The notes beneath the pieces are model-generated. The model made no database searches, was not told where the DNA came from, and was given only the letters and a program-made list of their open reading frames with translations. Below are positions 646 to 43,292 of a DNA stretch of 64,000 nt, piece by piece. Within the stretch, counting starts at the first letter, position 1, and each line of letters starts with the position of its first letter. Source of the stretch: Hirsutella rhossiliensis. Its lineage: Eukaryota > Ascomycota > Sordariomycetes > Hypocreales > Ophiocordycipitaceae. The translations under genes were made by a program, and so were the position numbers. The stretch lies in the NCBI RefSeq assembly GCF_020360975.1, contig NW_025408669.1, positions 4,216,001-4,280,000 of the forward strand. The letters run 5' to 3'.

Positions 646-986
646 ATTCGCACGCCCCCACTGTTAGCCGCGACAGGTGCTTATTCTCCGTGCCTAATTC
701 CAGTCATAGTTCCGTGTCAGACGCAGGCGTATTCGTACCTCGGCGCAACCAACACCACCTGATACGAATACGAGCGAGCCGTGTATGTGGTTGACATCTC
801 ACATGCAGCGGACAAAAGTGCCCCTGCAGTAATTAGCAATTAGATGTAGGACGATAAAGCAGAAGAGTGCCCCAGCGGCCAAACGTTGCTTGCTGTCTCT
901 TCCCCTTTCGTCTCTTCTTGTCTGTGTCGAAGCCGGACCTGATCTAGCATCACACTTACGCCTGGCTTGGCCAACGACGCTTCGCC
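646..986. other. NRPS-CYP51 intergenic/promoter region
   Basis: This short non-coding stretch separates the NRPS stop from the CYP51 start. I see no gene in it. The pyrimidine-rich part just before 987 looks like an ordinary 5' leader. Confidence 0.5.
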
Positions 987-2702
987 ATGTCTTCCTCGTC
1001 CTTCTTTCACGGCCTGTATCGCACAATGTTTTCCGGCCCCGCTGTTTCTGTTGCCGTTGGATTCGTGTTTTTCTCAATCTTCCTCAATATCCTCTGGCAG
1101 CTGCTCCCGAAAAGCAAGTCGGAGCCTCCTCTGGTCTTCCACTGGATCCCCTTTGTCGGCAATGCTGTCTCCTATGGCATGGATCCCTTTGAGTTTTACA
1201 CAAGTTGTCGACAAAAGGTACGTCTGACTCGCCGAAACCAACTCCTCCAGACGGGCAATTCCGAACTGCCTTGCCCAGGAGCTAGCCCAACTGTCTCCTC
1301 TTCTCTTTGTCGCTGCTCCACACTGGCGCCATGGCTAACTCTGGGCGTGGTTCGTAAACCCCAGCACGGCGACATCTTCACTTTTATTCTCTTCGGGAGA
1401 AAAATGACCGTGTACCTCGGCATCGACGGCAACGACTTCATCCTCAACGGCAAACTACAAGACGTCAATGCCGAGGAGATCTACGCGCCTCTTACCACCC
1501 CCGTATTCGGTCGCGACATCATCTACGATTGCCCCAACGCAAAGCTCATGGAGCAGAAGAAGTTTGTCAAGTTTGGCCTGACCCAGACCGCGCTCTGCTC
1601 CTATGTCCAGTTGATTGAGCAAGAGACGGCCGAGTACCTCAAATCAGCCCCTGCCTTCAAGGGTCAATCTGGGATCATCAACATCCCAGCCGCCATGGCC
1701 GAGATTACCATCTACACTGCCGGTAGAGCCCTGCAGGGGAAAGAAGTTCGGCAGAAGTTGACGGCCGAGTTCGCCGAGCTATACCACGACCTTGACCTAG
1801 GCTTCCGACCCATCAACTTCTTGCTGCCGTGGGCGCCTCTACCGCAAAACCGTCGACGAGATGCCGCGCACGCCAAGATGAGATCCATCTACATTGACAT
1901 AATCAACAGGCGTCGCCAGTCCGGCAAACCTCCCAAGGAGGAGGACGTCGACATGATCTGGCACCTGATGGGCTGCATCTATAAGAACGGAAAGCAGCTC
2001 CCAGACAAGGAGATTGCTCACATGATGATCACGCTCCTCATGGCCGGCCAGCACTCGTCGTCGTCGTCTAGCTCATGGATCATGCTGCGCTTGGCCTCGC
2101 GGCCCGATATTGTGGAGGAGTTGTATCAGGAACAGATCCAGAAGCTCGGCTACGATGCAACTCGGCCCCAACCGCTCCAGTACTCCGACATTGACAGGCT
2201 GCCTCTTCTCCAAAATGTCATCAAGGAGACGTTGCGCGTCCACTCCTCCATCCACTCCCTCATGCGCAAGGTCATGAGGCCCATGCAAGTGCCAAACAGC
2301 GATTACACCATCACGCCAGACAAGGTGCTCGTGGCCTCGCCAATCGTCACACATCTAAGCGAGGAATACTTTCCCAATGCCCAGGTCTGGGATCCGCACC
2401 GCTGGGACGACGCCGTCGAAGCAGAGGTGGACGGAGACATGGTCGACTACGGATACGGTGCCGTGTCCAAGGGAACACGGAGTCCGTATCTGCCCTTTGG
2501 CGCCGGGCGGCATCGTTGCATTGGGGAGAAGTTTGCCTATGTCAATCTTTGCACCATCATTTCCACGATGGTCCGGAATCTGAAGCTCAACACGGTCGAT
2601 GGCAAGTCGTGGGTGCCAGCGACGGATTACACGTCTCTCTTCTCGAGGCCAACACAGCCCGCCGAGGTTCGCTGGGAGCGACGCCTTCCCGAGTCGGCTT
2701 GA
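987..2702 (+). CDS. cyp51: Sterol 14-alpha-demethylase, cytochrome P450 family 51
   Basis: Ergosterol-pathway P450 that removes the 14-alpha methyl of eburicol/lanosterol at the ER membrane; it is the azole target. Two exons, 987-1217 and 1365-2702, give 522 residues, normal for fungal CYP51. A hydrophobic N-terminal anchor lies at about residues 18-38. The region with [10 protein letters not shown] and [14 protein letters not shown] is the conserved B'-C substrate-recognition region. The I-helix reads [13 protein letters not shown], the K-helix ExxR is in KETLRVHSS, and the haem loop [10 protein letters not shown] places the ligand near Cys462. The intron (1218-1364) has donor GTACGT, branch CTAAC and acceptor CAG. 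It is 147 nt with no stop in frame, so an unspliced reading stays open. The sequence looks closer to CYP51A-type than B-type paralogues, but I cannot prove that. It starts about 390 bp after the NRPS stop. Confidence 0.95.
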
Positions 2703-17687: not shown

Positions 17688-20600
17688 TCAGCTCTCCTCG
17701 AGGAACTCGCGCAGCTCGGTCTCCTCGCCGCTGTGGCAGACCATGTCGTAGAACTGGCCCCTGGAATCGTAGAGGTCCTTGGGCGAGCCTTGCCTGGTGG
17801 GCGGCGCGCCCCATTTTGTCAGTCTTGGCCGCACTGTCAACGGGCGGTGGATTTTGCTTACTCGAGAACTCTGCCCGCGCTCATGACGACGACGACGTCG
17901 TAGTCGATGATTGTGCGCAGGCGATGGGCAATGGTGACGAGGGTGCGCCCGCTGCCGCCGCCGTCGTCGTCGGCGCGTTGGAGCTCGGCGCGCAGGACGC
18001 GCTGGATGCCGCGGTCCGTCGCGTAGTCCATGCTGGCCGTGGCCTCGTCGAGGAGCATGAGGCGGCTGTCGCGGACGAGCGCCCGGCACAGCGAGAGCAC
18101 CTGGCGCTGGCCGTGGGAGAAGTTGTCCCCGCGGGCGTGCACCTCCGTGGCGAGGGCAATGGCCTCGTTGCCGTTGACCGCCGCGGCCCCATGGACGTGG
18201 TTGTCGTCGTCGTCGTCGTCGCCGCCGCCGGAGGAAAAGGACGCGATGCCCTTGCAGTTGTCGAGGGCGGCGTCGAGGCGTGCGCGGGAGGCGAGGCCCG
18301 TCGGGTCGAGGTTGGAGGCGACGGAGCCGCTGAAGAGGACGGCTTCCTGCGGGATGATGGTGAGGCTCTCGCGGAGGCGGCGGCGGGGCACCTTTGTGAT
18401 GTCGACGCCGTCGAGGAGGATCTGGCCCGAGACGATGTCGGTGAAGCGCAGGAGGGAGAGGACCAGCTGACAGTCGTCATTAGCTTCAACCCCGAAGCGA
18501 TGAGCCACAGATGCGAAGAAACTCACGGTGCTCTTGCCCGACCCCGTCCTTCCGACGATGGCGACCCGCTGGCCGGCCCTGAACGTGAGGCTAATGTCGG
18601 AGAGAATGTCCGGGCCGCCGGGGTCGTACCGCACCGTCACGCTGCGAAACTCGACCTGCCCCGAGCACGGCCAGCCTTCGGGGATGACGCGGGCGTCATT
18701 GTCGGTGTAGCCCCCTTCGGCCTGGTCCGCGAATGGCCTGTCGTCCTTGCCCTCGGGCTCGAGCTTGACGTATTCCTTGACGCGGTGGAACTGGTGGTGG
18801 GGAGATGAATACTTAGCATCCACGGGCTCGGCCAAAAGGGGGTCGCGGGAGCAAAGAAGCAAGGGAGGACTTGACCAGGAACTTACACTTTGCATCTCCA
18901 CCTCGAGATCATTCATGCTGCGCACGAGCATGAGAATCGTCTGGCTCAGCTCGTTGGCACTGGTGAGAGAGAAGCCGACCAAGCCAGCTCCGACAAGCCC
19001 GACCTTGGACACGGCAATGATGCCGGCCGAGAGGGCGACGAGGGCAGTGACGAGGTCGATGCGCACCGCGACCCAGCGGTTGCAGTTGTAGTTCGTCTCG
19101 GACGCGGCGGACCACACGCGCAGCTTGTCGGCCAGCTCGGCGCCAAACGTGCCCGCCATGCCGGTTCTGGCGCGGATGACGGGCAGGCCGGCGAGCGTGT
19201 CTGCAAACTGCGAGAAGACGGGCGACTGGGCCGACGAGGTCAGGCGCTTGATGACGACGGCGGTGCGCGTGTACATCTCGCCCACGACGATGCCGACGCA
19301 GCAGGCCGCCAGGCCGGGCAGCATGAAGACGGGCATGATTGCGCTGACGGCGCCGACGCGCAAGAGGAGCTGGATGATGGTGTCGAGGGACGCACGCAGC
19401 ATGGCGCCCAGCGCGCCGTCAATCGACGCCATGTCGCCCGAGAAGCGGTTTGTGATGCGGCCCACGGGTACCGCCTTGAACCATGATAGCGGTACCCTCA
19501 TGACGGCGCGGATAAAGTCGTTGTGCAGCCTGCGTGCCGCGCGCCACGAGCCCCATTCGAACGCGATGACGATGACGCCGTACGACATCAGCTCGGAAAA
19601 AACCAGTAGCGCAAAGATGCCCATGTAAAAGGCAACGTCGACGTGCGCATTGTGGTTGTAGGCTTCGACCCAGACCGACAGCCATAGGGTCGTCGAGAAG
19701 AAGAAGACATTGGCGAGGAGGAGGCCCACGAGGCAGACGACGGCAAACAGCGGGTGGCCAAAGTAGCCCATGTACTGGAGCACTGCAGAGGAGAAGCGTC
19801 AGTCAGCACATGTCTTGCGAGGATCGCCGGGGACGAGCAGATGCGCGTACTGCCCAGGCGGCCCGCCTTGCTCGTCGCCTTCATCTCCTGATCCACGGCG
19901 TCGTTGCGGACGGAGGCGTCTTGGGCCACCTTGCTGGTGTCGTTGAACCCATCTCCGTTGGGCTGGAGCTCCGGCTCGGGCACCTTGTCCGCTTCTCTCC
20001 CGTTTCCGTCGTCATCGCCGCCCCCGAGGACATCGGCAATCTTGATAGGCCGGCGAACAACGCCAATGTTGGGATCCACGCTCTTGACCTGGCCACCGTC
20101 GAGCATTATGGAAAGGTCTGCTTGAGCAGAGATCCACGGGACCTGAGTGACGAGGACCGTCGTCCGCCCCCGCAGCAAGTCGCCACAGAAGCAATGCTTC
20201 CACACGCCCGCCGACGTCTTGGCGTCCAGGGCCGAGAAGACGTCGTCTAGAAGTAGCAGCGGAGCCTTGGAATACAACGCTCGAGCCAGGGCAACTCGGG
20301 CTTTTTGTCCGCCGGACAGAGACGTCCCGTTCTCGCCCACTGCTGTCTGATCTCTCAGGGGCAACTCGCGCAAATCCTCGGGGAGGCAGCAGGCCTCCAG
20401 CACCCGGCCGTAGCGAACTTCTTCCATGGGGCTCCCGAAGAGGATGTTGTCGCGGATGGTTTCATTCTGGAGCCAGGCTGACTGAGACGCAAATGCAATG
20501 TCTTCCGGGGCCGTGACGCTCCCGCCTTCCAGGTAGGTCTCGCCAAGGATGGCGAGCAGGAGGGTCGACTTTCCACAGCCGCTCTGTCCAGTGACGACGT

Positions 20601-22648
20601 TGAGGCCGCCCTCGACAAAATCGAGGTTGATGTCTCGAAGACTGAAGGTGGCCTTCTTGCTTCGGCGAAAGTGGCCTCGTTCGATGCGCAAGGGACCGGC
20701 AGGATACTTGACGAGCGGAACAGTGCTTTCAAAGTACTTATCCAGCCGGCCGAAAGCGACGAGGGCGCCCGCGAAGTTGCGGGAAAACATGCTGGCCATC
20801 ATGATGTTTCTGCGAATGTTCTTGACCAGGTATAGGGTTGTAAAGGCGGTCGAGGCTTCCAGGGGCTTCCTGTCGAGTCCGACGTGCAGACCAAACAAGA
20901 CGAGTAGAGCAAGATACGGAAAGATGTGGGAGATTTCATTGATAGTGGTTTGCAACACTGCGAGCCCCCATAGTCCCTTTTGCTCAACGGCTCGAGCGGC
21001 GACAAGCTTTTCGGTAATGGGCGTCTCCCAGGCAAAGTACTTGATGGCCCGTATGGAAGCCAGGTACTCGGTTACGAGGGAGATGCGAGCATCCTGTGCT
21101 TTTCGGACTCGTTTCTGCGTCCCATACATCATCTTGCCGAACCAGACAGAAAGGGGTACTCCCAGGAACAACACAAAGGTCCCGACGAGGGAGGCCCAGC
21201 CGAGCATCTTGTACAGGCCGATGAGGGATATGACGGTGCCCGATGGGACGCCGACCAGGACAATAATCATGTCGCGGGCCCGGAAGATGGCGTCGACATC
21301 GGCAGCCATCAAGTTGGCTAGCCGCCCGGCCGAGGTTGACTTTTGCGCCTTGTCACTGTCGTTGTCAGGCTTGGCCTTGTCACCGCTCGCCTGGAAAGGG
21401 TCGTCCTCGATCTCCATGGACTGCAATGCCTTGTGGTAGAGTTCCTGCGTCATGGCCGACTTGATGCGCACTATGAGCCGGGTAGAGGTGAATATGTATT
21501 GCTGGTAGAGAATGGATCGACAGACTGGCCCGGAAAACATGAGGATCAGCCAGACCCAGGGGTGGTAGACGGCATCAGCAGGAGCGTCGAGATATTGCAG
21601 CAACCTAAACATGGCGAACGGTGCGATATTTTCCACGATATAGCTGCAGCCGACCCAGAGGGACATGAGGAGCAGCTCTACCCTCTGGAACCGGAGCGTC
21701 GTCCACAAGGTGGTCTTTGAAATGGAGCGAGCAACTTGAACCTTGCGAAGGAGATAGAGGGGCTCGTCGTACCAGGCCAGCTTGGGAATACCCGACATGT
21801 CGAGCTTTCCCGTGGTACCTTTCCAGATGACGGGCGTGAGCCACTCGTAGGTGCAATAGTAGTTGATCCAGCTGCACGTTTCCTCCAGGGTGGGCTCGCC
21901 TGGAAGCTCAAGGCCGGGGGTGTCATCGTGGTCATCTATCTGGGGCAGGACCCATGCTCTCGGAGTGAACATGGCCAAGACGAGGGCGACCAGGAGAGAA
22001 GCCGCGGCGCCGAGGATGCTGGGGTCGATGGTGCACTGGATTCCCGTCTGAACACAGGGAAGAAAGTGAGTCGCCACGAGCATGGCCAGGGACGCGACCG
22101 TAACAAAGTTGACCTGGTGAAGGGCCGCTTGGCGCCACTGGAGATGTCTTGAGAGCCGCAGTAGCCCGAGGACGAAGAGATAGACGAGGAGGACGAGACT
22201 CGGCCAGTGAGTGCGGCGGCGCACATAGGCGACGGCGAGAAAGGTCAAGGCAGCGGCCCTGGAGGCCTGGGAGAGCAGCTCAAAGCGCCAGGGGATGGAT
22301 GAGGCCTTGGGCTTGGCGCCTGGGCGGCCATTGCGATGCCGAGAAAGACAAGCGACGGCTACGCAGGCGAGGGAGACGGCGAGGATGACGGCCTGGAGAA
22401 TGCCCGACTGGGAGAAGCGGGAGAGGCGGCGGATCCATGGGACCTGGGAGACGGCGGTGCTGATGAGGCTGGACGAGGCGGGGGCTTCATCAGCATCGAA
22501 ATGAAGTGTTGAAGCTCGAGCAGCAGAGGAGAAGAGGAGCCATCACCAACCTGGACAGCGGCGGCCGTCTCGGCGGGTCGTAAGCACCGACGATGCTCCG
22601 AAAGGGCGAGGACTCGTAGGAGCCAAGGCGAAGAATGGCAACGTCCAT
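17688..22648 (-). CDS. ABCC-family (MRP-type) ABC transporter, full length
   Basis: ATP-driven exporter of conjugates or metabolites across the plasma or vacuolar membrane. Read on the minus strand, the clear exons are about 22464-19849, 19782-18887, 18790-18527, 18466-17862 and 17793-17688. Order: N-terminal membrane helices, TMD1, NBD1 (Walker A TGQSGCGKST, signature LSGGQKARVALARAL, Walker B LLLLDDVFSALD), TMD2, NBD2 (Walker A VGRTGSGKST, degenerate signature FSHGQRQVLSLCRAL, Walker B LMLLDEATASMD), then the tail QGSPKDLYDSRGQFYDM. NBD2 carries a D-rich insert (GGGDDDDDD) before the signature. The N-terminal exon is not resolved: the long frame opens at about 22550 without an ATG. An ATG at 22646-22648 (MDVAILRLG) is one candidate joined by an intron. 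Substrate unknown. Confidence 0.9.
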
Positions 22649-32941: not shown

Positions 32942-34431
32942 TCAACCTTCCTTGCTGCTGCCGCCCGCCTTGGCCCAGTTGGTCAAAATCTCAAAGGCCA
33001 CCTGAGCTGCAACGAGGGCCGTCTGCTCGCCGGGCCCGTCATATGCTGGATTCACCTCGACAATGTCGGCCCCCACCACGTCTAGCCCTTCGAGCCCGCG
33101 CAGCATCCGGATAACCTCCCTGCTGGTGAAGCCCCCGACCTCGGGCGTCCCCGTCCCCGGCGCGAGGCCCGGGTCCACGACGTCAATGTCGAAGCTGAGG
33201 TAGACGGGGCCGTGCCCAACCCTGGCCTTGACCTTGTCGACGATGCCCTCGACGCCGATGCTGTCCACCTCGTCGGCGCCAATCTGTGCAAACCCCTGTC
33301 TCGCGTCGTCGTCGTTGTCCTCGGGCCCAGAGAGCCGGGTGCGCAGCCCGACGTGGACCGAGCTCCCGTTGGCGATGAGACCCTCGTCCCATGCAAACGT
33401 AAACACGTCGCCGTGGTTGAAGCGGCCCTGCTCCGAGAACCAGGGGAACTGCTCGGCGCTGGCGGGCGGGATCCACGTATCGAGATGAGCGTCAAAGTGA
33501 ACCACCGTCAACGGCTGCCCGTGGATCTGCCGTAGGGCACGCAGCGCTCCGAGAGCCACGCTGTGATCGCCCCCCAGGGTCAGAAGCCTGGGCGGACCTT
33601 GTTGTCCCGTCCCGCGGCGGGCGCTGGGCCGCGATCCGAGCTCCGTCATAGCCTGTGTCATCTGCCGCAGCGCCACGCCGTTGTCGAGTGGCATCAGCGG
33701 GATGTCGCCGCAGTCGAGCACCGTCAGCCCTGACTTGTACGGGTTGATGTGTGCCCGCGGGTTCCAGCCCCGGCTGCGAGACTGTCGTGCCGAGGCCGTG
33801 CGGATGGCTCGCGGCCCGAAACGGGCGCCTTTTGGACGACGTTAGCCTGTCTGCGGACCATCAACTATCCAGGCTTTTGATGACATGGTCTGCCTTTGCG
33901 CTGGTCGGTGCGGGACACGACGCACCGGTGCGGTAGGAAACGGCCGTGTCGAAGGGAGCCCCGATGATGCCGATATCAAAGGGCGTGTCGGGTTCCGTCA
34001 AGCAGCTGACGTGCTTCAAGTGAGCAAAGGTGGAGATGCCCGAGTAGGACCACTACAGCTGTTAGAGTCTCATTGTGCCACGCAATGACTTTCGCTCCTC
34101 CGCCGCAATCGCCCCTCGGTTGCGCCATAACCAGAAGACGGACACGCATCGTGTGTAGGCAATGCTCACTGACCTGAATCCCCCACAGACGCTCTAGTTC
34201 GGCTTTCCTCCCCACCGCCTTAGGAGACTTATTTTCGACTGCATCATGCTGTGTCAAGAGCGCGCCAGCTGCTGACCGATGTTGGGGGCCCCAGAGCACT
34301 TCTGGCTGCACCACGTACAGGGTGCCGATGACGATGAAGAGGGAGAGCGGTATCGTCGTCAAGAGGAGCAGCAGAGGGGCAAGCCTGGATCTGTGTAGTC
34401 CTAGGCGGCCTTGTGTGTTCGCCATCAACAT
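32942..34431 (-). CDS. Agmatinase-like ureohydrolase with N-terminal membrane anchor
   Basis: Binuclear-manganese hydrolase of the arginase/agmatinase superfamily, cleaving guanidino groups to urea. Exons 34431-34174, 34052-33926 and 33828-32942 give 423 residues. Splicing restores [13 protein letters not shown] and [13 protein letters not shown], both typical of agmatinases. Metal ligands are visible in [10 protein letters not shown] (His217), DAHLD (Asp241, His243, Asp245) and [10 protein letters not shown]; the C-terminal block is [12 protein letters not shown]. Residues about 18-42 form a hydrophobic segment after Arg-rich residues, consistent with a signal anchor, so the catalytic domain would face the secretory lumen or outside. 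The second intron ends in AAG. The true substrate (agmatine, guanidinobutyrate or another guanidine) cannot be read from sequence. It sits on the same strand 0.9 kb downstream of the repeat protein, whose every repeat holds an arginine. Confidence 0.88.
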
Positions 34432-35345
34432 GATGAGACGAGGCTTTCCTAGTGGCCGGGAGAGGGAGATGGAGATGCCAAGGTGTCGAGGTCGGAGGGG
34501 GGCAGATGAATCGACCAAAGGGAGCTTGTTCAGGGCATGCTTGTGAGCTCCATGCGTTGATGCCGACGAAGCCTCCATCCAGAGAGCGGATGATTCGCAA
34601 CTAGCCACAGACAACTGGACCCTATGTGCCCCTCCAACTCCTACCCGAATGTAGATGAGGACCATGCAGCTTTGCGTCGTGGCGAGGCGGGAACCACTGC
34701 AGCATACAGGCAGGGGTACGATACTGTGCATGGCAAGCTCTCGTCTCACTCTTCACACCCCCCACACTGCATGGACGCAATTGAGTTGCATCGGCACGCT
34801 TACGCCTCGGAAAGGATTGCCGACCCCTTGGTGCTTGTCCTCACCAAGTTCACGTTGCATGATGGCGACATCGGCGCCGTATGTTGCTCATATCGCCATG
34901 TCAAAGCCGTGGTTGAAAGAGATACAGACGGAGGGCCCCGGAGAGCCGACCTTGACACTTCATCAGCAGTCCGAGTACAGTGAGACATAGCACAGATGGT
35001 GTTCAGATTTCTAGAAGTTCGCTGTCGTGTAAAGGAGGACAAGACAGGGGGGCTGCTACGTTGTACAAGCCCTTGGACTTCACCACAACTACAGATGTGC
35101 AGAGAAAGATTAGAATTAGAAAGGGAGTTTCAACGCAGGCTTTTTGGCGACGGCAGCAATCGTGTGTTTGACTTTGACTTGTAGTAGCCGGCTATCTGAA
35201 GTGATGAAAAAGCTATCCATGTCCAGAACAGATCGGCTGCCAGCCAAGATGATGAAGAGTTCCCACGAAGCTCTCGTCGTCTCCTGTGTTGCCGCGCTTT
35301 GTGTCCCTTGCGGTTTGACACGGGCCGTAAGGCGTGTGGGTTGAC
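34432..35345. other. Ureohydrolase promoter / repeat-protein 3' flank
   Basis: Non-coding as far as I can see. The frame of ureohydrolase exon 1 stays open further upstream (to about 34749), but that part lacks family likeness and I treat it as leader. Confidence 0.45.
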
Positions 35346-35813
35346 TTAGTTGACCTCGGAGCGGACAGCGTAGTCGTTGTTCTCAGACCGGACAGCGTAG
35401 TCATTGGTGTCGGAGCGAACAGCGTAGTCGTTGGTATCAGACCGGACAGCGTAATCGTTATTCTCAGACCTCACAGCGTAGTCGTTGGTATCGGATCTGA
35501 CGGCGTAGTCATTGTTCTCGGACCTCACGGCGTAGTCGTTGGTGTCAGACCGGACGGCGTAGTCGTTGTTCTCAGATCGGACAGCATAGTCATTGTTCTC
35601 AGATCGGACAGCATAATCGTTGGTGTCAGACCGGACGGCATAGTCATTGTTCTCAGACCGGACAGCGTAATCGTTATTCTCAGACCTCACAGCGTAGTCG
35701 TTCTCAGACCGGACAGCATAGTCGTTCGACCTCACGGCATAGTCGTTCGTCTCAGCCACGGGAGCAGCTACGACGGCAGCAGCCAGAGCCACAAGGGTGA
35801 GAGCGTACTTCAT
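35346..35813 (-). CDS. Secreted 15-repeat protein, candidate RiPP precursor
   Basis: Single exon of 155 residues. Residues 1-17 (MKYALTLVALAAAVVAA) form a clear signal peptide. After PVAET, residues 23-152 are fifteen copies of NDYAVRS, mostly joined by EN or DT to make a 9-residue unit (E/D)(N/T)NDYAVRS; the end is EVN. The architecture (signal peptide plus near-identical short repeats each with one Tyr) matches fungal repeat precursors such as those of ustiloxin-type dikaritins. The Tyr-Ala-Val core resembles the Tyr-Ala-Ile/Tyr-Val-Ile cores cross-linked by UstYa enzymes. Unlike those precursors it has no Lys-Arg Kex2 sites; the only basic residue per repeat is a single Arg before Ser-(Glu/Asp). 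An UstYa homologue lies 2.1 kb away, divergent. A structural cell-wall repeat protein or effector is the alternative. Confidence 0.85.
   Translation of the reverse strand: MKYALTLVALAAAVVAAPVAETNDYAVRSNDYAVRSENDYAVRSENNDYAVRSENNDYAVRSDTNDYAVRSENNDYAVRSENNDYAVRSDTNDYAVRSENNDYAVRSDTNDYAVRSENNDYAVRSDTNDYAVRSDTNDYAVRSENNDYAVRSEVN
35358..35747 (-). repeat. 27-bp coding tandem repeat, 15 copies of NDYAVRS
   Basis: Twelve full 27-bp units plus three shorter units (21-24 bp) at the N-terminal side. Two versions alternate (ENNDYAVRS and DTNDYAVRS). Synonymous differences between copies are few, suggesting recent amplification or gene conversion. Confidence 0.95.
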
Positions 35814-37951
35814 GGTGAAAAGCTGGGGAGAAGCGGAAAAGCAGTGAACTGAGTGATGAAACAACGTGGACAATGTCTAATGTCAAGAAGCGGAAGGGAA
35901 AAGTAGATGAGGGGCGACGAAAAGGTCTGAGTCAATGCTCTCTCTTATAGATAAGCACACAGACCATGACATTGGCGACTCGTTGCTTCTCCGGCTCATC
36001 TTCCTCCTTGCCCGGCGGGACTGTCCATCGCTCGGCACACCACCAGTGCCATCCATTGCGTGAGCCTCCCCCGCCCCCGTCATCAATAAACCGAAGCCGG
36101 CAGTCTCGTCGAAGACACAGAGTCGCATCAGCCGGAGAGCACGTCGAGGGGGGCCGATCTTTGCCCTCTCGAATACTCTGCCTCTCACGCCGGCAACTTG
36201 ATCATGATGTGTCGTGGTCAACCCACCCCCCTGCCTTTCCGCTTTCTCCACCTCCTCTTCTCTTCCTCCTCCGCCTTTTTGTCATCTTCTCCAGAACCCC
36301 GCTTCTCGTGAGCCAGAGGCCGCATCCGGGAAGAGAAGGAGGCGGGAGGCAGCGCCGGCATCAGGTCGAGTTGCATCTACCTATCAGTAGATCATACGGT
36401 CCGGGATACCATCGAAGAGGGAGGAAGCTTTGCCGGTAACCGATGGCCCCTGTTGCCCGCCCGTGTCGACCGAGATCAAAGCCCAAAGCATAGGCTGCAA
36501 CTGGGACATATTTTCTTCTTGCGTCCTGGCCACCGACCCTCCTTTCCGCCCCGTCCAATACTGACAAGTCGAGTGACGACTGGGATTGCACGCACGGACT
36601 GCTTGCTGACTGCAGGTAACACTTGGCCAGTGGTCACTCGGAGAAACCGACAGTGAAGAGCGATGGACGGCCGGCGTTTTGCATCGAGGCAGCCCGCGTT
36701 GTATTGCAGTTTTCTCCAGCCCGAACCGCAAGTCATCGTCACCGTCTTGACAGCCACGTCGATATTGCGGCTCGTGGCGTCTCACCGAATGCACGCAGCA
36801 GAGGCGAGAGAACAGGGGGGAAAACGAGAGTAAGATTCAAACAGTGCTCGGCGGCAGCATCGGCAGGCCCTGAGAGTCGTTTGGGAGACCGAGTCTGTCC
36901 TTCAATGACAAGGAGCCATGCATGTAAAGCGGCATGTAGGCGACAGAGCCCAAGCAAGGCAGTTCGATAAACAGTACAACGCCCGCGCGTACGTCGTCGA
37001 GGGCTGTTATCCAATGAAAAGTGAGCAGAGTCCGGATCCATGACAGTTATTGCTGCCGCCGGCGAGATGTCGGAGATGGAGACCCTTTGCTTACGGCCCT
37101 GGACCCATAATGCACATCCTGATATCCATCCGTCGCGGGCGGGGGCTGACAGATGACAGAGGAACGCATGCAGAACCGCCTCCCCTTTTGTCGTTGATGA
37201 TACGATTTCGCAGAGAAACCCGAAAGACACGCTGACGATCTGGTGCGGCTTATCTTCCCTGCATCGCGGGCTGCCTCTTTGAGAGCACAGCAACCAAGAC
37301 AAGGCCAGGGACGGGTTCATCTTATCGACGCCACCCGGTCACAGGCCGCGGGGGCCCTGCGTCGTCCAAGATGCATCAAGAACCGCCTGCCTATAAGAGA
37401 TCCCCCCTGCTGTCCGATGCTACCCCAGTGCTGACCCTTGGCCCCACGGCCCGGAGCCGAGTGCAACCTCGAGTACACGGGGTGGCTTGATTGTCCCTGT
37501 TGAGGTTTGCAGCGAGTAGCGACACGATATCCGAACCCGGTGATGTTCGGGGGAGAGGATGCTCCGCTCTTGATGCGGGCGAGTAGGGCGGCAGGCATGC
37601 GGGGGTCTGGAACCAAGGCCGGCGTGCCTGGCTGATGACGGGACTGATACCGAGACGCTTCAATCCGGCGGGCAATCTTCCCCGCCAGTTCCCGTCAGAC
37701 TTGGTGAGCGGAGCAGGGGGCAAAGGTCCAAGGACATATTCACATCGCCGTTGTCGGCGCTGTCCTGAGTTCCATACCTCGTCGGGGAGCAAGTCGACTT
37801 GGGCAACAATTCAGCTTCAAGCCCCTGGCGTGGGATGTCCCCTTGGGCTCTTTGCTCGTATCCCCAAGTCGTTGCTGTTGGTTTCAAGGGACGACCGTAA
37901 GCCCGTCGTCCTTCTGCGAGCCAGCCTCACCACCTACCCCTGATCAATCCA
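35814..37951. promoter_or_regulatory. Divergent intergenic region between repeat protein and UstYa-like gene
   Basis: This 2.1-kb region separates the two divergently transcribed genes and so must hold both promoters. ORFs inside (for example 36384-36794 and 36739-37320, minus) lack family motifs and I read them as chance. No transcription-factor gene or defined operator was identified. Confidence 0.45.
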
Positions 37952-38872
37952 ATGGCACCCCCAAGTCGCGATGCGAGCCTCGACGCGGAGGCCGGCGAGG
38001 CTCTGCTCGAGAAGCACTCGTCACTGTCAGACTCGGAATCGTCTCAATTTCCCCTTTGCCCGTCTTGTGCCCGCAGACAGGCGCGCCAGCCGTCCGTCTT
38101 CCGGAAAAAGGGCCTCTGGGTCACGTACCTCAACCTCGTCCTCTTCCTCACCAGCATTCTTCTCCTCATCGGCGCCCGCCGCAGCCTCCGCCCGCCGCCG
38201 CCCTCGGGGCGCGAGGTCGTCGAAGCCACCTCGGCCTACTCTCCAATCTTCGATGCCGTCGACCTCACGCCGGTGCCCCTGACCGTTGACGGACGTCTGC
38301 ACGCGCCCGCCAACGCCTCCGTCTTCCGTGGCGAGCCATCCAACGTGACCGATGCCGCGTGGGACGACGTGTCGGCCGAGGCCTACGAGGTCATCCTCGT
38401 CAATGCCACCGTCCTCGAGCGCGCCGGCTACAACCCGACGCACTACTTCAAGGCGCCCTCGTCATGGGGCCACGGCGAGGGCCAGTATCCCGTCCAGATC
38501 GACGTCTTCCACCAGATCCACTGCCTCAACGCCGTCAGGAAGCAAATGTATTACCAGCATTACTATGCCGATGAGTTCCCCAACGGCCCCGACGAAATGC
38601 ACTGGATGCACCAGCGCCACTGCCTGCACATGGTGCTGCAGAGCCTCATGTGTAACGCCAATGTGGACATTGTGCCGCATCGGTGGGTTGAGAAGGACAA
38701 CAAGCCCTTTGCGCAGTTCAGCATCCAGAGGCAGTGCAGGAACTTTGACAGCCTGCGCAGTTGGAACAAGAAAAACGCCGTCAAGAACGTACGCGACTTG
38801 TGGCCGCACGACAAGAAGGCGATGCCGCAGGATGCCTTTGTCTGGTCAGGATTTGGCGAGTCGTTTTCCTGA
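37952..38872 (+). CDS. UstYa/DUF3328-family oxidase
   Basis: Copper-dependent-type tailoring enzyme family that installs oxidative cyclisation, dehydrogenation or chlorination on fungal peptides. Single exon, 306 residues. A cytosolic N-terminus of about 53 residues is followed by one membrane helix (about 54-74) and a lumenal domain with N-glycosylation sequons at Asn121, Asn131 and Asn151. The two hallmark HxxHC motifs are intact: HQIHC at 187-191 and HQRHC at 220-224. The C-terminal part carries several Trp/Asp-rich blocks (for example VRDLWPHD) seen in the family. The nearest neighbours are the repeat protein (divergent) and an ABCC exporter that converges on it with 17 bp between stop codons. 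Known clusters often have two UstY proteins; only one is visible here. The same family also acts in nonribosomal (cyclochlorotine) pathways. Confidence 0.9.
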   Translation: MAPPSRDASLDAEAGEALLEKHSSLSDSESSQFPLCPSCARRQARQPSVFRKKGLWVTYLNLVLFLTSILLLIGARRSLRPPPPSGREVVEATSAYSPIFDAVDLTPVPLTVDGRLHAPANASVFRGEPSNVTDAAWDDVSAEAYEVILVNATVLERAGYNPTHYFKAPSSWGHGEGQYPVQIDVFHQIHCLNAVRKQMYYQHYYADEFPNGPDEMHWMHQRHCLHMVLQSLMCNANVDIVPHRWVEKDNKPFAQFSIQRQCRNFDSLRSWNKKNAVKNVRDLWPHDKKAMPQDAFVWSGFGESFS

Positions 38873-38889
38873 AGCTAGATCGTATATAT

Positions 38890-41800
38890 TTAATGGATTC
38901 GAACCCCCTGCATGTCACACAGCCGCTTGAAGATGGAGTCGCGAGACAGTAGCTCGGCGGGCGACGCGCTCTCGACGAGCTGGCCCGCGTCCATGACCAT
39001 GATGTGGTCCAAGTCGATAATCGTGCTCAGCTGGTGCGCCACTGCGATGACGGTCCGGCCCTTGAACTCCTCCCGGATGATTCGCTGCATGACTTCTGCC
39101 ACATGCTTGTCCACACTGCTGCTTGTCAGTTCAAGACGGGAGAAGCGTCTGCTTCGGATAAGACTTACTTGCTCGTTGCCTCATCCAGCACAACAATCCT
39201 CCCCGGCCTCAGTACCGCACGGGCCAGCGCCAGAAGTTGCCTCTGGCCCTGGCTGAGAGTCTCAACGTCTAGCTCGCTGTCAAGGCCGCCGGCAGATTCC
39301 ACCACGTCCCACAGCTGCACCTTCTCAAGAGCGGAGCGCATGGCTGCGGCCGAGGCCGAGCCCGACGAGTCGAGGTTCTGCGCCAAGGTCCGGTGGAAGA
39401 AGTAGGGCTCCTGGGGGATGATGTTGAGCGCAGATCGAACCACGGAGCGAGGCACTGTGCTGAGGTCCACGCCGTCGACGGTGATGGAGCCGCAAGTCAA
39501 GTCTATCATCCGTGCAAGAGCCATGACGAGAGAGCTCTTCCCGCTTCCACTTCTCCCGCAAATGGCAACCTTTTGGCCTCCGGGGATGTCTATGGAGACG
39601 TCACGCAGCGCGAAGCCTCCCTTCTCAGACATGTCGTAGCGGGCCGAGATGGAATCCAGGCGCAAATGGCCCGTTTGAGGCCACGGCGGCTGTGGTGTAT
39701 TCGACTCGCCTGCCTTGTTCTCCGATGGCGTCTTTTCCTCAAACGACTTGGTTCGCGCAAGCGCACTGAGCGACGTCTCCAGGTTTGTCCAGTGAATGAC
39801 AATCATCTTGAGTTCCTGGCTGATGGACATGAGGTTCACCAATGCCACGCCGATGAACCCTGCCGACGTAGACTGCAGCTTGACGGCCACCGCGATTAGA
39901 ATGACGGCGGTGGCGGCAATCAAAAGCTCCAGAACCAACTGCAGCCATCTTTGCACCATGTAGAGGAGATAGAGTGGCCTTTGCGACGCGTCCACCAGCT
40001 CGTGGTTCAGCTCGTTGCTCTCGCCCGACCATCCAAACGAGCGAATGGTGGCGAGGCCTTGCAAAGTCTCCAGAAAGTGCGTGTACAGCGGACTCTTTGC
40101 CTCGAGGTCAAGAAACCTGAGCTGCCGAGAGGTGCGCAGATAGAAGCTCTGCACGCCGTACAGCATCACGGCCAGAAAGGGGTAGGCGATAGCCACGTAC
40201 GGCGCCGCAATGGCAATGAGAACGGACTGTGCCAGCGCAACGAGACCGGCCGAAACGGTTTCGAGGAGGGCCATCGGGAGATCTCCGTCGATGAGGATGA
40301 CGTCCTGCGAGAAGCGGTTCGTCGTGATGCCCACGTCAACAGAGCTGAAGAATGACACCGGTGCTGCCATGACCGTCCTGAGCAGAACTTGGTGCAGTGA
40401 TGCGCCGACCCTGACGGCCATCGAGGTCAAAGTATGGCCAGCGAAGAGGGCAAGAAACACCAGCGCGAGGCTCTGAAAGGCTGCATACACGCCCATGTAG
40501 TAGCCGTCGCGGCTCTGCCCCGTGGCGTTTGCCGCGGCCCAGAACTTGAGCCACACAGGCCCGATTGTTGAAAAGACTGCCCAGCCACATTGGAAGCCGA
40601 CAAACAAGAGTACTCGCCAGAGTCCAATATGGTTGTACAGGTATTTGTAGATGGAGGCATCGCCTAGGCGCCGCGTCATGTCCTCCGGAGCCTCTGCTCC
40701 AGTCGCTTCGGTTCCCAAGGGCAGACCGGCAGACACATCACTGGCTTCTTGAGCCCCGTGAAGGTCAGCAGCCTGTCTCTCACGAACAGCCAGCGATTTG
40801 ATGTACTCGGAAGCTTGGCTCAGATGGCCAAAGGTTCCACTGTCAGCTACCCGTCCGTCCTTCCCCAGGGCAATGACATGGTCGGCTTCCGGTAGAAGGT
40901 CGACGTCGTGGGTGGAGAGTACAACCGTGCATCCCCCCTTTCGAAGCAATCCCCGAGGGCCGAAGACGTGCTCAAACACGTGTTCCTTGGTAACCGCGTC
41001 CAACCCGCTTAACACATCGTCAAACACGACCAGGGGTGTCCGGGCGTAGATGGCCCGGGCTATGGCGACCCGTTGCCGTTGACCTCCGCTTAAAATGACC
41101 CCCTTGCTGCCTATCCGGGTATCGTTTCCCTCCGACAGCGACGATATATCTTTGGTGAGGTCGACTGCCCGCACGACTGTGTCGTACCAGCCGCTTTCGA
41201 AATCTGAGAAGCCGACTATGTTTTGTTGTAGCGTTCCGTTCACGAGAAACGGGTTCTGGTCGCAGTACGCTATCTCAGGGCGCGGAACCCTGAGTCGGAC
41301 CTGACCCTTACAGAATGGGAGTTCACCAATGATGGCCTTGCTGAAAGAGCTCTTGCCGCTGGCCACTGGTCCGACAACCATGGTCAGTCTCGAGGCAGGA
41401 ATATCAACGTTGACATCCCGCAGCACGGGGCTGGCGCTTGTCCAACCAAACTCTCCGTTGCGAATTGCGATGGCATCGCCGTCTATGCCCTTGCGTTCCT
41501 CTTGCATCTCCTGTGTTGAGCTGGCACTAGTAGAGGATGGGGCAAACTGACATCCGTCAAGTCCCAATATGCGATTTTCCGTCTTGGGCTGAGCATCGAG
41601 GTACTTGCCAATGCGGCCAAGGCACCCCAGAGAGGCGACGAAGAGCGGTATGGCTTGGAAAAGCCAGACGAGCGGTTGAGTCATGAGCTGAAGCAGAGAA
41701 AGCGACGTAAATATCTTAGTTGTGTCCAGATTCGCCCCGTTGCCTCGCCCTTGTATCACAAAGATCATGAAGGTAAACACCGGGGACAACAGAAGCGGTG

Positions 41801-43292
41801 CAAACGAGAGAGTCGCAGTGAGCACCTCGATGTATCGGAAGTATCTGGCGGCGTGGAGCTCGGCTGCTCTCAACCCCCTGAGCATCGCGTCTATGCTGCC
41901 GGAGAGCCCAAGGAGCCTCGCGATTTTGATGGCGGCTATCGCCTTGACCGTTGCACCAACTCGCGCCTGGGTCGCTTCCATCCATTTCCTCTGGGCATTG
42001 TCAGCGTAGGAGCTCATCAATAATGAGCCGAAGCTGGCGAGAACGGCCACAACAGCGGGCGCCACGCAAGCGATGCCCAGGTCTCTGTAGAGCAGCCAGA
42101 CGGAGATGGCCACCTGCAGGGCGTTTGCCCAGATCTCGTGGAAGTCTTTGCAGCCTTGGAGAATGCGCTCCATGTCGGTGCTCATGAGAGCAACGGGCGC
42201 CGTCATGTCGTAGCGGGCAGGGTCAACATCCGTCGTCTTTCTGTAGATGGCTGCCACAAGACAGCCGCGCATCTTGACGAGACACTTGTAGGTCAAGCGC
42301 CAGTAGACACAGGTCGAGATGGCCAGGCCGCAGTAGACCAGGCCGTATGCGCCGATGAAGCCATAGCCGGTGCTGCCGGCAAAACTGTCCTCGCCTTGAA
42401 GATAGCGGAGAAACTCGCGCAACAGGAGAGGCTGGCAGATGGTGAAGGCCCCTTGGGCAAGACGCGGTGCCACGGGGGCCAAAAGGGACCACTTGAGAGT
42501 CTGCACGAGGGCCAGGGCAATGCTTCGCGACGAGGCGCCGGCAGACCTCGCGGACCAAGCCGTCCAGAAGACGCCAGATAGACGTCGAGTCTCGAGGCCG
42601 GAAGCGAGAGCATAGAGATCCTGGGGGTAAAGGATGCGTTTGCGGCCCTGCACTAGGATACGACGGAGCCACAGGAGAAAGCCCCGGCTGAAGACTCCGC
42701 TCTTGTCCTCCGGACTCCGATGACGCCATAGAGGAGACAAGAACCTGTCCTTTTCAAGGCTCTCGAGGACAAGAAGGCCTATCTTTACGGCGAGCGACGT
42801 TGTGAAGAGAACGGGGAGGGCGGTACCCGAGTTCTTGAGCCACAGGGTGCGGGCTTGCACGGCATCAAACAGGACGGAAAGCAAGAGGTAGATGTTGATG
42901 AGAGCCGAGGGGCGTGGCGAGTAGCCATGTTCAACCCAGGAGAGAGTGGCGAGGGCGAAGACATCAACAAAAGACAGCACGGCAGCGGCGAGGCTCGTGC
43001 GGGTGCCATAGACTCCGGTTCGGGCCCAGAGGACCAAGAGGGCTGCCTGGACAGCGCCGTAGCAAGCAACGGCGGCCAGCTTTGCGAGCTGGAACCGAGT
43101 CCCCGAGACCTGTCTTCTTCTCCTGGACAGCAGAAGACTGAGGCGCGCAGCCGATAGCAGAAGAAAGAGGGAGGATGGCGTTATCGAGAGGAAGCTCTGC
43201 TCAAACAGCAGGGTGAAGTCAAAGTTGCCTCGGCAGCCGCCGTTGATGGCCGGGCCGAAGCTCCCATCGTCACAAACAGTCGCGTTCTCCAT
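38890..43292 (-). CDS. ABCC-family (MRP-type) ABC transporter, full length
   Basis: Two exons (43292-39169 and 39115-38890; 53-nt intron, donor GTAAGT, acceptor CAG) give 1449 residues. I chose the ATG at 43292 because it begins MENATVCDDGSFGP and is followed by CRGNFDFTLLFEQS, the typical start of fungal ABCC proteins; the longer open frame upstream is leader. Order: TMD0-like helices, TMD1, NBD1 (Walker A GPVASGKSS, signature LSGGQRQRVAIARA, Walker B LVVFDDVLSGLD), TMD2, NBD2 (Walker A GRSGSGKSS, signature LSQGQRQLLALARA, Walker B IVVLDEATSNVD). It lies tail-to-tail with the UstYa-like gene and is the natural candidate exporter for that locus. Vacuolar conjugate transport is the alternative role. 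Confidence 0.93.

Follow-up and report, generated by a model that had tools for sequence, protein, structure and literature searches.

A secreted NDYAVRS repeat protein beside a conserved UstYa-ABCC gene pair in Hirsutella rhossiliensis: a possible dikaritin-like locus

Known dikaritin precursors are described as being marked by dibasic Kex2 sites (PMC7329392; PMC9769878). KEX2-processed repeat proteins (KEPs) have been defined as proteins with at least three repeats of at least eight residues between Kex2 sites, and the same account gives DUF3328 gene counts as highest beside Kex2-repeat genes (PMC7329392). For the dikaritin cluster as a whole, the criterion of Ding et al. (2015), as quoted in PMC12048977, names multiple DUF3328 proteins, a tyrosinase and a methyltransferase; later dikaritin clusters are reported there to miss one or more of these genes. 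A further DUF3328 enzyme, CctR, is described as the copper-dependent hydroxylase of cyclochlorotine, a non-ribosomal cyclic peptide, with a copper site proposed to face the organelle lumen (PMC12435403).

The window analysed here, a stretch of 64,000 nucleotides, is part of contig C3 of the 81.8 Mb H. rhossiliensis assembly (G000; 40 contigs). Within it, this nematode parasite carries a minus-strand gene (35346-35813) for a secreted protein of 155 aa with 15 perfect NDYAVRS heptads, a candidate non-canonical precursor. Upstream of the plus-strand UstYa/DUF3328 oxidase gene (37952-38872; 306 aa, Pfam UstYa 188.6 bits), this is the first recognised gene, 2.1 kb away. An ABCC-type ABC transporter gene with TMD0 follows on the minus strand (38890-43292; recognised from Pfam and by eye), and an agmatinase-like ureohydrolase gene of three exons, encoding 423 aa with an N-terminal hydrophobic anchor, lies on the minus strand at 32942-34431. 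The anatomy of these genes is firmly established, and three statements of a preliminary description of the locus were borne out: a secreted protein of 15 NDYAVRS repeats (15 perfect units behind a signal-like start), an intact UstYa enzyme with two HxxHC motifs in a single open frame, and a full ABCC gene ending 17 bp from it.

Judging by flanking Pfam families and GC content, the surroundings look like conserved core and unlike a typical secondary-metabolite cluster. Flanking ORFs matched P450, G-alpha subunit, carbohydrate phosphorylase, protein kinase and a second ABC transporter, and further ones glycosyltransferase, zinc finger, cation efflux protein and mitochondrial carrier. In all, 18 ORFs of the window were scanned, three of them without a match to any family. 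GC content is 60% in the window, compared to 45-56% at the 11 other places in the genome with UstYa matches. None of the 13 genomic matches to tyrosinase (PF00264) lies inside the window, no methyltransferase appeared among the 18 window ORFs given a Pfam scan (a subset of all ORFs), and one of the genome's 19 UstYa matches falls within it. A cytochrome P450 gene is located near the window start (948-2699, plus strand). The second large ABC transporter (17861-22542, minus strand; two overlapping ORFs) is situated approximately 11 kb from the ureohydrolase gene and 16 kb from the UstYa-ABCC pair.

The repeat protein has a signal peptide at its N-terminus, as judged by eye and by a hydropathy script. 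Its heptads follow one another directly or are separated by E, EN or DT, with no degenerate unit in between, and all seven heptad codons vary across the 15 units. All 36 codon differences to the consensus are synonymous and none changes a residue, whereas the 21-base unit, when read in the remaining five frames, shows 7 to 31 residue-changing differences; the all-synonymous outcome has a p of about 1.7e-5, counting eight variable sites and assuming random changes. On this codon evidence the NDYAVRS heptapeptide is under strong protein-level constraint, which we regard as firmly established, the exact heptad being kept by selection while the spacers vary. Homogenisation of the copies is an insufficient explanation on its own, because silent sites differ among units. 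The dibasic pairs KR, RR, KK and RK each occur 0 times in the 155 aa. The likeness of the heptad to the ustiloxin core comprises two residues. Two Pfam matches of the protein, both below cut-off, were taken as artefacts.

The UstYa protein, encoded in one open frame of 306 aa, carries HQIHC at residues 187-191 and HQRHC at 220-224. In an alignment of 36 sequences, H187 and H190 never vary; C191, H220, H223 and C224 are kept in at least 90%. In the predicted structure (mean pLDDT 75.1, pTM 0.65), a long N-terminal helix at 49-78 appears to form a membrane anchor, and the motifs are placed on two further helices. The features of DUF3328 copper oxidases, HxxHC(x)nHxxHC and one membrane helix, are present. 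A fold search with the model was uninformative, none of its 125 PDB matches reaching E<=0.001. Cyclisation at Tyr is a reaction that we infer, since DUF3328 enzymes are also described as implicated in hydroxylation and halogenation (PMC12435403).

The ABCC gene has its start codon at 43292 and its stop codon at 38890-38892, both placed by eye, leaving a gap of 17 bp to the UstYa stop. Pfam recognises two ABC_tran domains, two ABC_membrane domains and one TMD0. The annotated ABCC protein (P0037) agrees with the open frame at its start and in its final residues but omits two internal pieces of it; an intron near the 3' end was identified by eye. We assessed pairing by comparing 36 UstYa entries with the best 120 of 126 ABCC entries, taking contigs of identical size as the same contig. 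By this proxy, UstYa and ABCC shared a contig in 11 cases including the window, or for 10 of the 35 other UstYa entries, among the matches listed. Five of the 10 other shared contigs measure at most 12.2 kb; the 721 kb contig of Camillea is too long to show closeness, and closeness on the 604 kb contig of Cytospora rests on locus tags. Close tags for UstYa and ABCC were seen in Cudoniella acicularis (g14100/g14101), Diaporthe ilicicola (9822/9824) and Cytospora leucostoma (03163/03161). Among the matches listed, no shared contig was seen for the remaining 25 UstYa entries; the cause may lie in the tables rather than in the genomes.

Pairwise distances of UstYa and ABCC were strongly correlated (r 0.94, Mantel p 0.0001; nine of the 11 pairs, two with a fragment UstYa being dropped), a pattern that fits inheritance as a unit but also plain vertical descent. 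The pair is present in Sordariomycetes and Leotiomycetes. From these comparisons of sequence, UstYa and ABCC emerge as a conserved pair; the pairing is firmly established and makes a clear target for finding its product. In a tree of 22 chosen ABCC sequences, two Leotiomycetes stood beside Hypocreales, a placement that hints at transfer. We make no claim of transfer, because the rooting of the tree is poor and the Cudoniella ABCC lies on a 10.6 kb contig. A limited literature search returned no published description of the UstYa-ABCC pair.

The picture for the repeat protein is different. One search returned no homologue at E<=10 among 4139 candidates, and it missed the window's own copy too; the database may be without the gene, or the scoring may be unsuited to such a repeat. 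Searching its own genome returned the protein itself and two weak matches (E 0.025 and 0.23), the latter being a KR-bearing repeat gene on contig C7, and no second copy was found in that search. Conservation in relatives, as expected by the preliminary description, was seen for the UstYa-ABCC pair, and a homologue of the repeat protein was not found. Given that relatives carry the pair, the missing repeat homologue means that the pair may serve another substrate. An old UstYa-ABCC module would then lie by chance 2.1 kb from an unrelated, lineage-specific secreted repeat protein, which might serve in adhesion, in the wall or in interaction with the host, or might supply linear peptides. We rate this explanation as a serious possibility, somewhat short of an even chance. 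The presence of the pair in both Sordariomycetes and Leotiomycetes, the lack of Kex2 sites and the conserved-looking surroundings all agree with it. Against this, the absence of a homologue is weak evidence, because repeat precursors evolve fast, as suggested by the 2560 of 7878 Kex2-repeat proteins reported without a homologue (PMC7329392), and because the search missed the window's own copy.

The other UstYa genes of the genome bear on the same question from both sides. The 18 UstYa matches outside the window fall in 11 places, each of which was taken as a 9.9 kb stretch and compared to 10 control stretches. Tandem-repeat ORFs were found at three of the 11 places (on contigs C7, C1 and C17) and in one of the 10 controls, a difference that is not significant (Fisher p 0.33). 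The sole control match (L035 8902-9901, contig C8) is a satellite-like array open in two frames. One of five further window tiles contained a repeat ORF, short and low-complexity. ABCC-like pieces occurred at four of the 11 places and in none of the 10 controls (p 0.055). That the other eight UstYa places have no repeat ORF within 9.9 kb favours an unrelated repeat protein in the window. Elsewhere on contig C3, at 8.05 Mb, a plus-strand ORF (L010 1155-1952) is built of PPPPPGDKK and KKDD repeats and includes a signal-like stretch.

Among the three places with repeats, the gene on C7 (L021 5648-6271, plus strand) has a signal-like start, KRDGT(I/L)Y(S/G)R(A/S)NGHASPD units, KR sites and nine dibasic pairs, the usual dikaritin-type form. 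Its units show 28 synonymous and 7 residue-changing codon differences, and there is a single UstYa match at a distance of about 2.5 kb. UstYa genes on both sides of it were considered and rejected, the flanking ORFs matching no Pfam family and showing HxxHC-like pairs by eye only. The ORF on C1 (L017 7879-8448, plus strand) begins with a signal-like sequence. Its four AVEAINNQAGWGK units are linked by RDT, which gives KR at each junction, and two UstYa matches lie nearby. To judge from these putative genes, KR-form repeat genes near UstYa exist in H. rhossiliensis, and the window's repeat gene is not of the KR form.

The locus on C17 (C17:66900-83500; L018/L033) comprises UstYa matches on both strands, a ESSIVDNNWKTY repeat gene and ABCC pieces. 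Repeat (minus), UstYa (plus) and ABCC (minus) stand here in the same order and direction as in the window. The ESSIVDNNWKTY repeat has KR at one of its three junctions and single lysines at the other two, and a probable separate signal exon was recognised by eye. The repeats on C1 and C17, of four units each, show 13 and 11 synonymous differences, respectively, and 0 residue-changing ones, counts to be read with a search pattern that required exact units, although the printed ORFs contain no degenerate ones. Pfam confirms UstYa and ABC_membrane domains at C17 together with polyketide-synthase KR and ACP domains; an MFS-like ORF was set aside, having matched no Pfam family. The frames are interrupted, with stop codons in some UstYa matches and the ABCC spread over several frames, reflecting introns or decay. 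Over pieces longer than 60 residues, the C17 ABCC is merely 28-45% identical to that of the window, and the arrangement is therefore recurrent and not a recent copy. This recurrence of the three-gene order counts against a repeat protein that is unrelated to its UstYa-ABCC neighbours.

Taking these results together, we tentatively prefer a dikaritin-like locus built on an old UstYa-ABCC pair, in which the repeat protein, UstYa and ABCC act together and single Arg residues are the cleavage sites of the precursor; we give this reading a probability of roughly 0.45, its main rival being the unrelated repeat protein. The repeat protein would enter the secretory route via the signal peptide seen in its sequence, and the membrane-anchored UstYa, a homologue of CctR, would oxidise each NDYAVRS core, perhaps at Tyr. 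A protease would cleave every repeat behind its one Arg and not at KR pairs, which would free short peptides like S(E/D)(N/T)NDYAVR, and the ABCC, going by its family, would carry the product across the membrane. Single-Arg cleavage has precedent, because expressed fungal repeat proteins are reported to have yielded peptides ending at a single Arg (PMC9769878). Published surveys are described as seeking UstYa-type peptides via repeats between Kex2 sites (PMC7329392; PMC9632046); if the NDYAVRS precursor is real, searches based on Kex2 sites would overlook a set of such precursors.

The UstYa-ABCC pair might also serve a product, of dikaritin type or not, for which the real precursor is encoded elsewhere in the genome. 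CctR, a DUF3328 enzyme that tailors a non-ribosomal peptide (PMC12435403), and two lichen UstY cluster families described without a repeat precursor (PMC12048977) offer parallels for such an arrangement. We consider it improbable here, as the first recognised gene on the upstream side encodes a secreted repeat protein with a Tyr in every unit.

The preliminary description had added the ureohydrolase as a fourth member of a coherent set making a Tyr-cyclised short peptide. Its family assignment stands, as does the anchor judged by eye; the single-ORF extent does not, the gene reaching 34431 in three exons (34431-34174, 34052-33926 and 33828-32942, with splice sites chosen by us). The segment 32942-33721 scores 234 bits against the Arginase family, above the family cut-off, and the agmatinase model TIGR01230 gives 155.9 bits, under its curated cut-off of 174.3 bits. 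The spliced protein contains, by eye, GGDHS, DAHLD and SFDIDVVDP, which we take to be typical metal-site stretches of the ureohydrolase family, and its N-terminal anchor is compatible with lumenal placement. These features and the neighbouring positions are what a single four-gene pathway has in its favour. The closest solved proteins, proclavaminate amidinohydrolase and guanidinobutyrase, have small guanidino compounds as substrates. In addition, contig C10 carries a relative with 55-66% identity over three pieces. With adjacency as the only tie to the other genes, the ureohydrolase is probably a neighbour and not a pathway member, and we hold a pathway of all four genes to be decidedly improbable. 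A peptide-arginase role is known from bacteria. That the locus represents a class of peptides without dibasic sites, with a UstYa-oxidised heptapeptide, single-Arg cuts, a dedicated ABCC and a lumenal ureohydrolase turning the Arg of NDYAVRS into ornithine, seems to us highly improbable. The coherence proposed for the set is seen in the conserved UstYa-ABCC pair and in the recurrence with a repeat gene on C17, and probably does not extend to the ureohydrolase. Likewise, the proposed dikaritin-type precursor has secreted, constrained, Tyr-bearing repeats in its favour, while dibasic sites and a tyrosinase match in the window are absent. Overall, the earlier picture is partly supported, a reasonable hypothesis that is weaker than stated.

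Compared to the described systems, the locus resembles those of the dikaritins (ustiloxin, phomopsin, asperipin-2a) in its signal peptide, many short Tyr-bearing cores, nearby UstYa and transporter, with UstYa 2.1 kb from the repeat gene and the ABCC 17 bp from UstYa. Unlike in dikaritins, no KR, RR or KK stands between the cores, and the window has one UstYa match in place of multiple DUF3328 proteins and no tyrosinase match. Like KEPs, the repeat protein is secreted and has perfect tandem repeats, its 15 heptads exceeding the three tandem repeats required; unlike them, it has no repeats of at least eight residues between KR, KK, RK or RR, and is therefore not a KEP by the published definition, as given in PMC7329392. 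In common with CctR as described (PMC12435403), the window's UstYa is predicted to have a single membrane helix and to carry HxxHC(x)nHxxHC on two helices; the substrate of CctR is a non-ribosomal cyclic peptide, whereas a repeat protein is the proposed substrate of the window's enzyme. Finally, although the C17 locus differs in its second UstYa match, polyketide-synthase KR and ACP domains, ESSIVDNNWKTY repeat and interrupted frames, it shares with the window the order of repeat gene (minus), UstYa (plus) and ABCC (minus).
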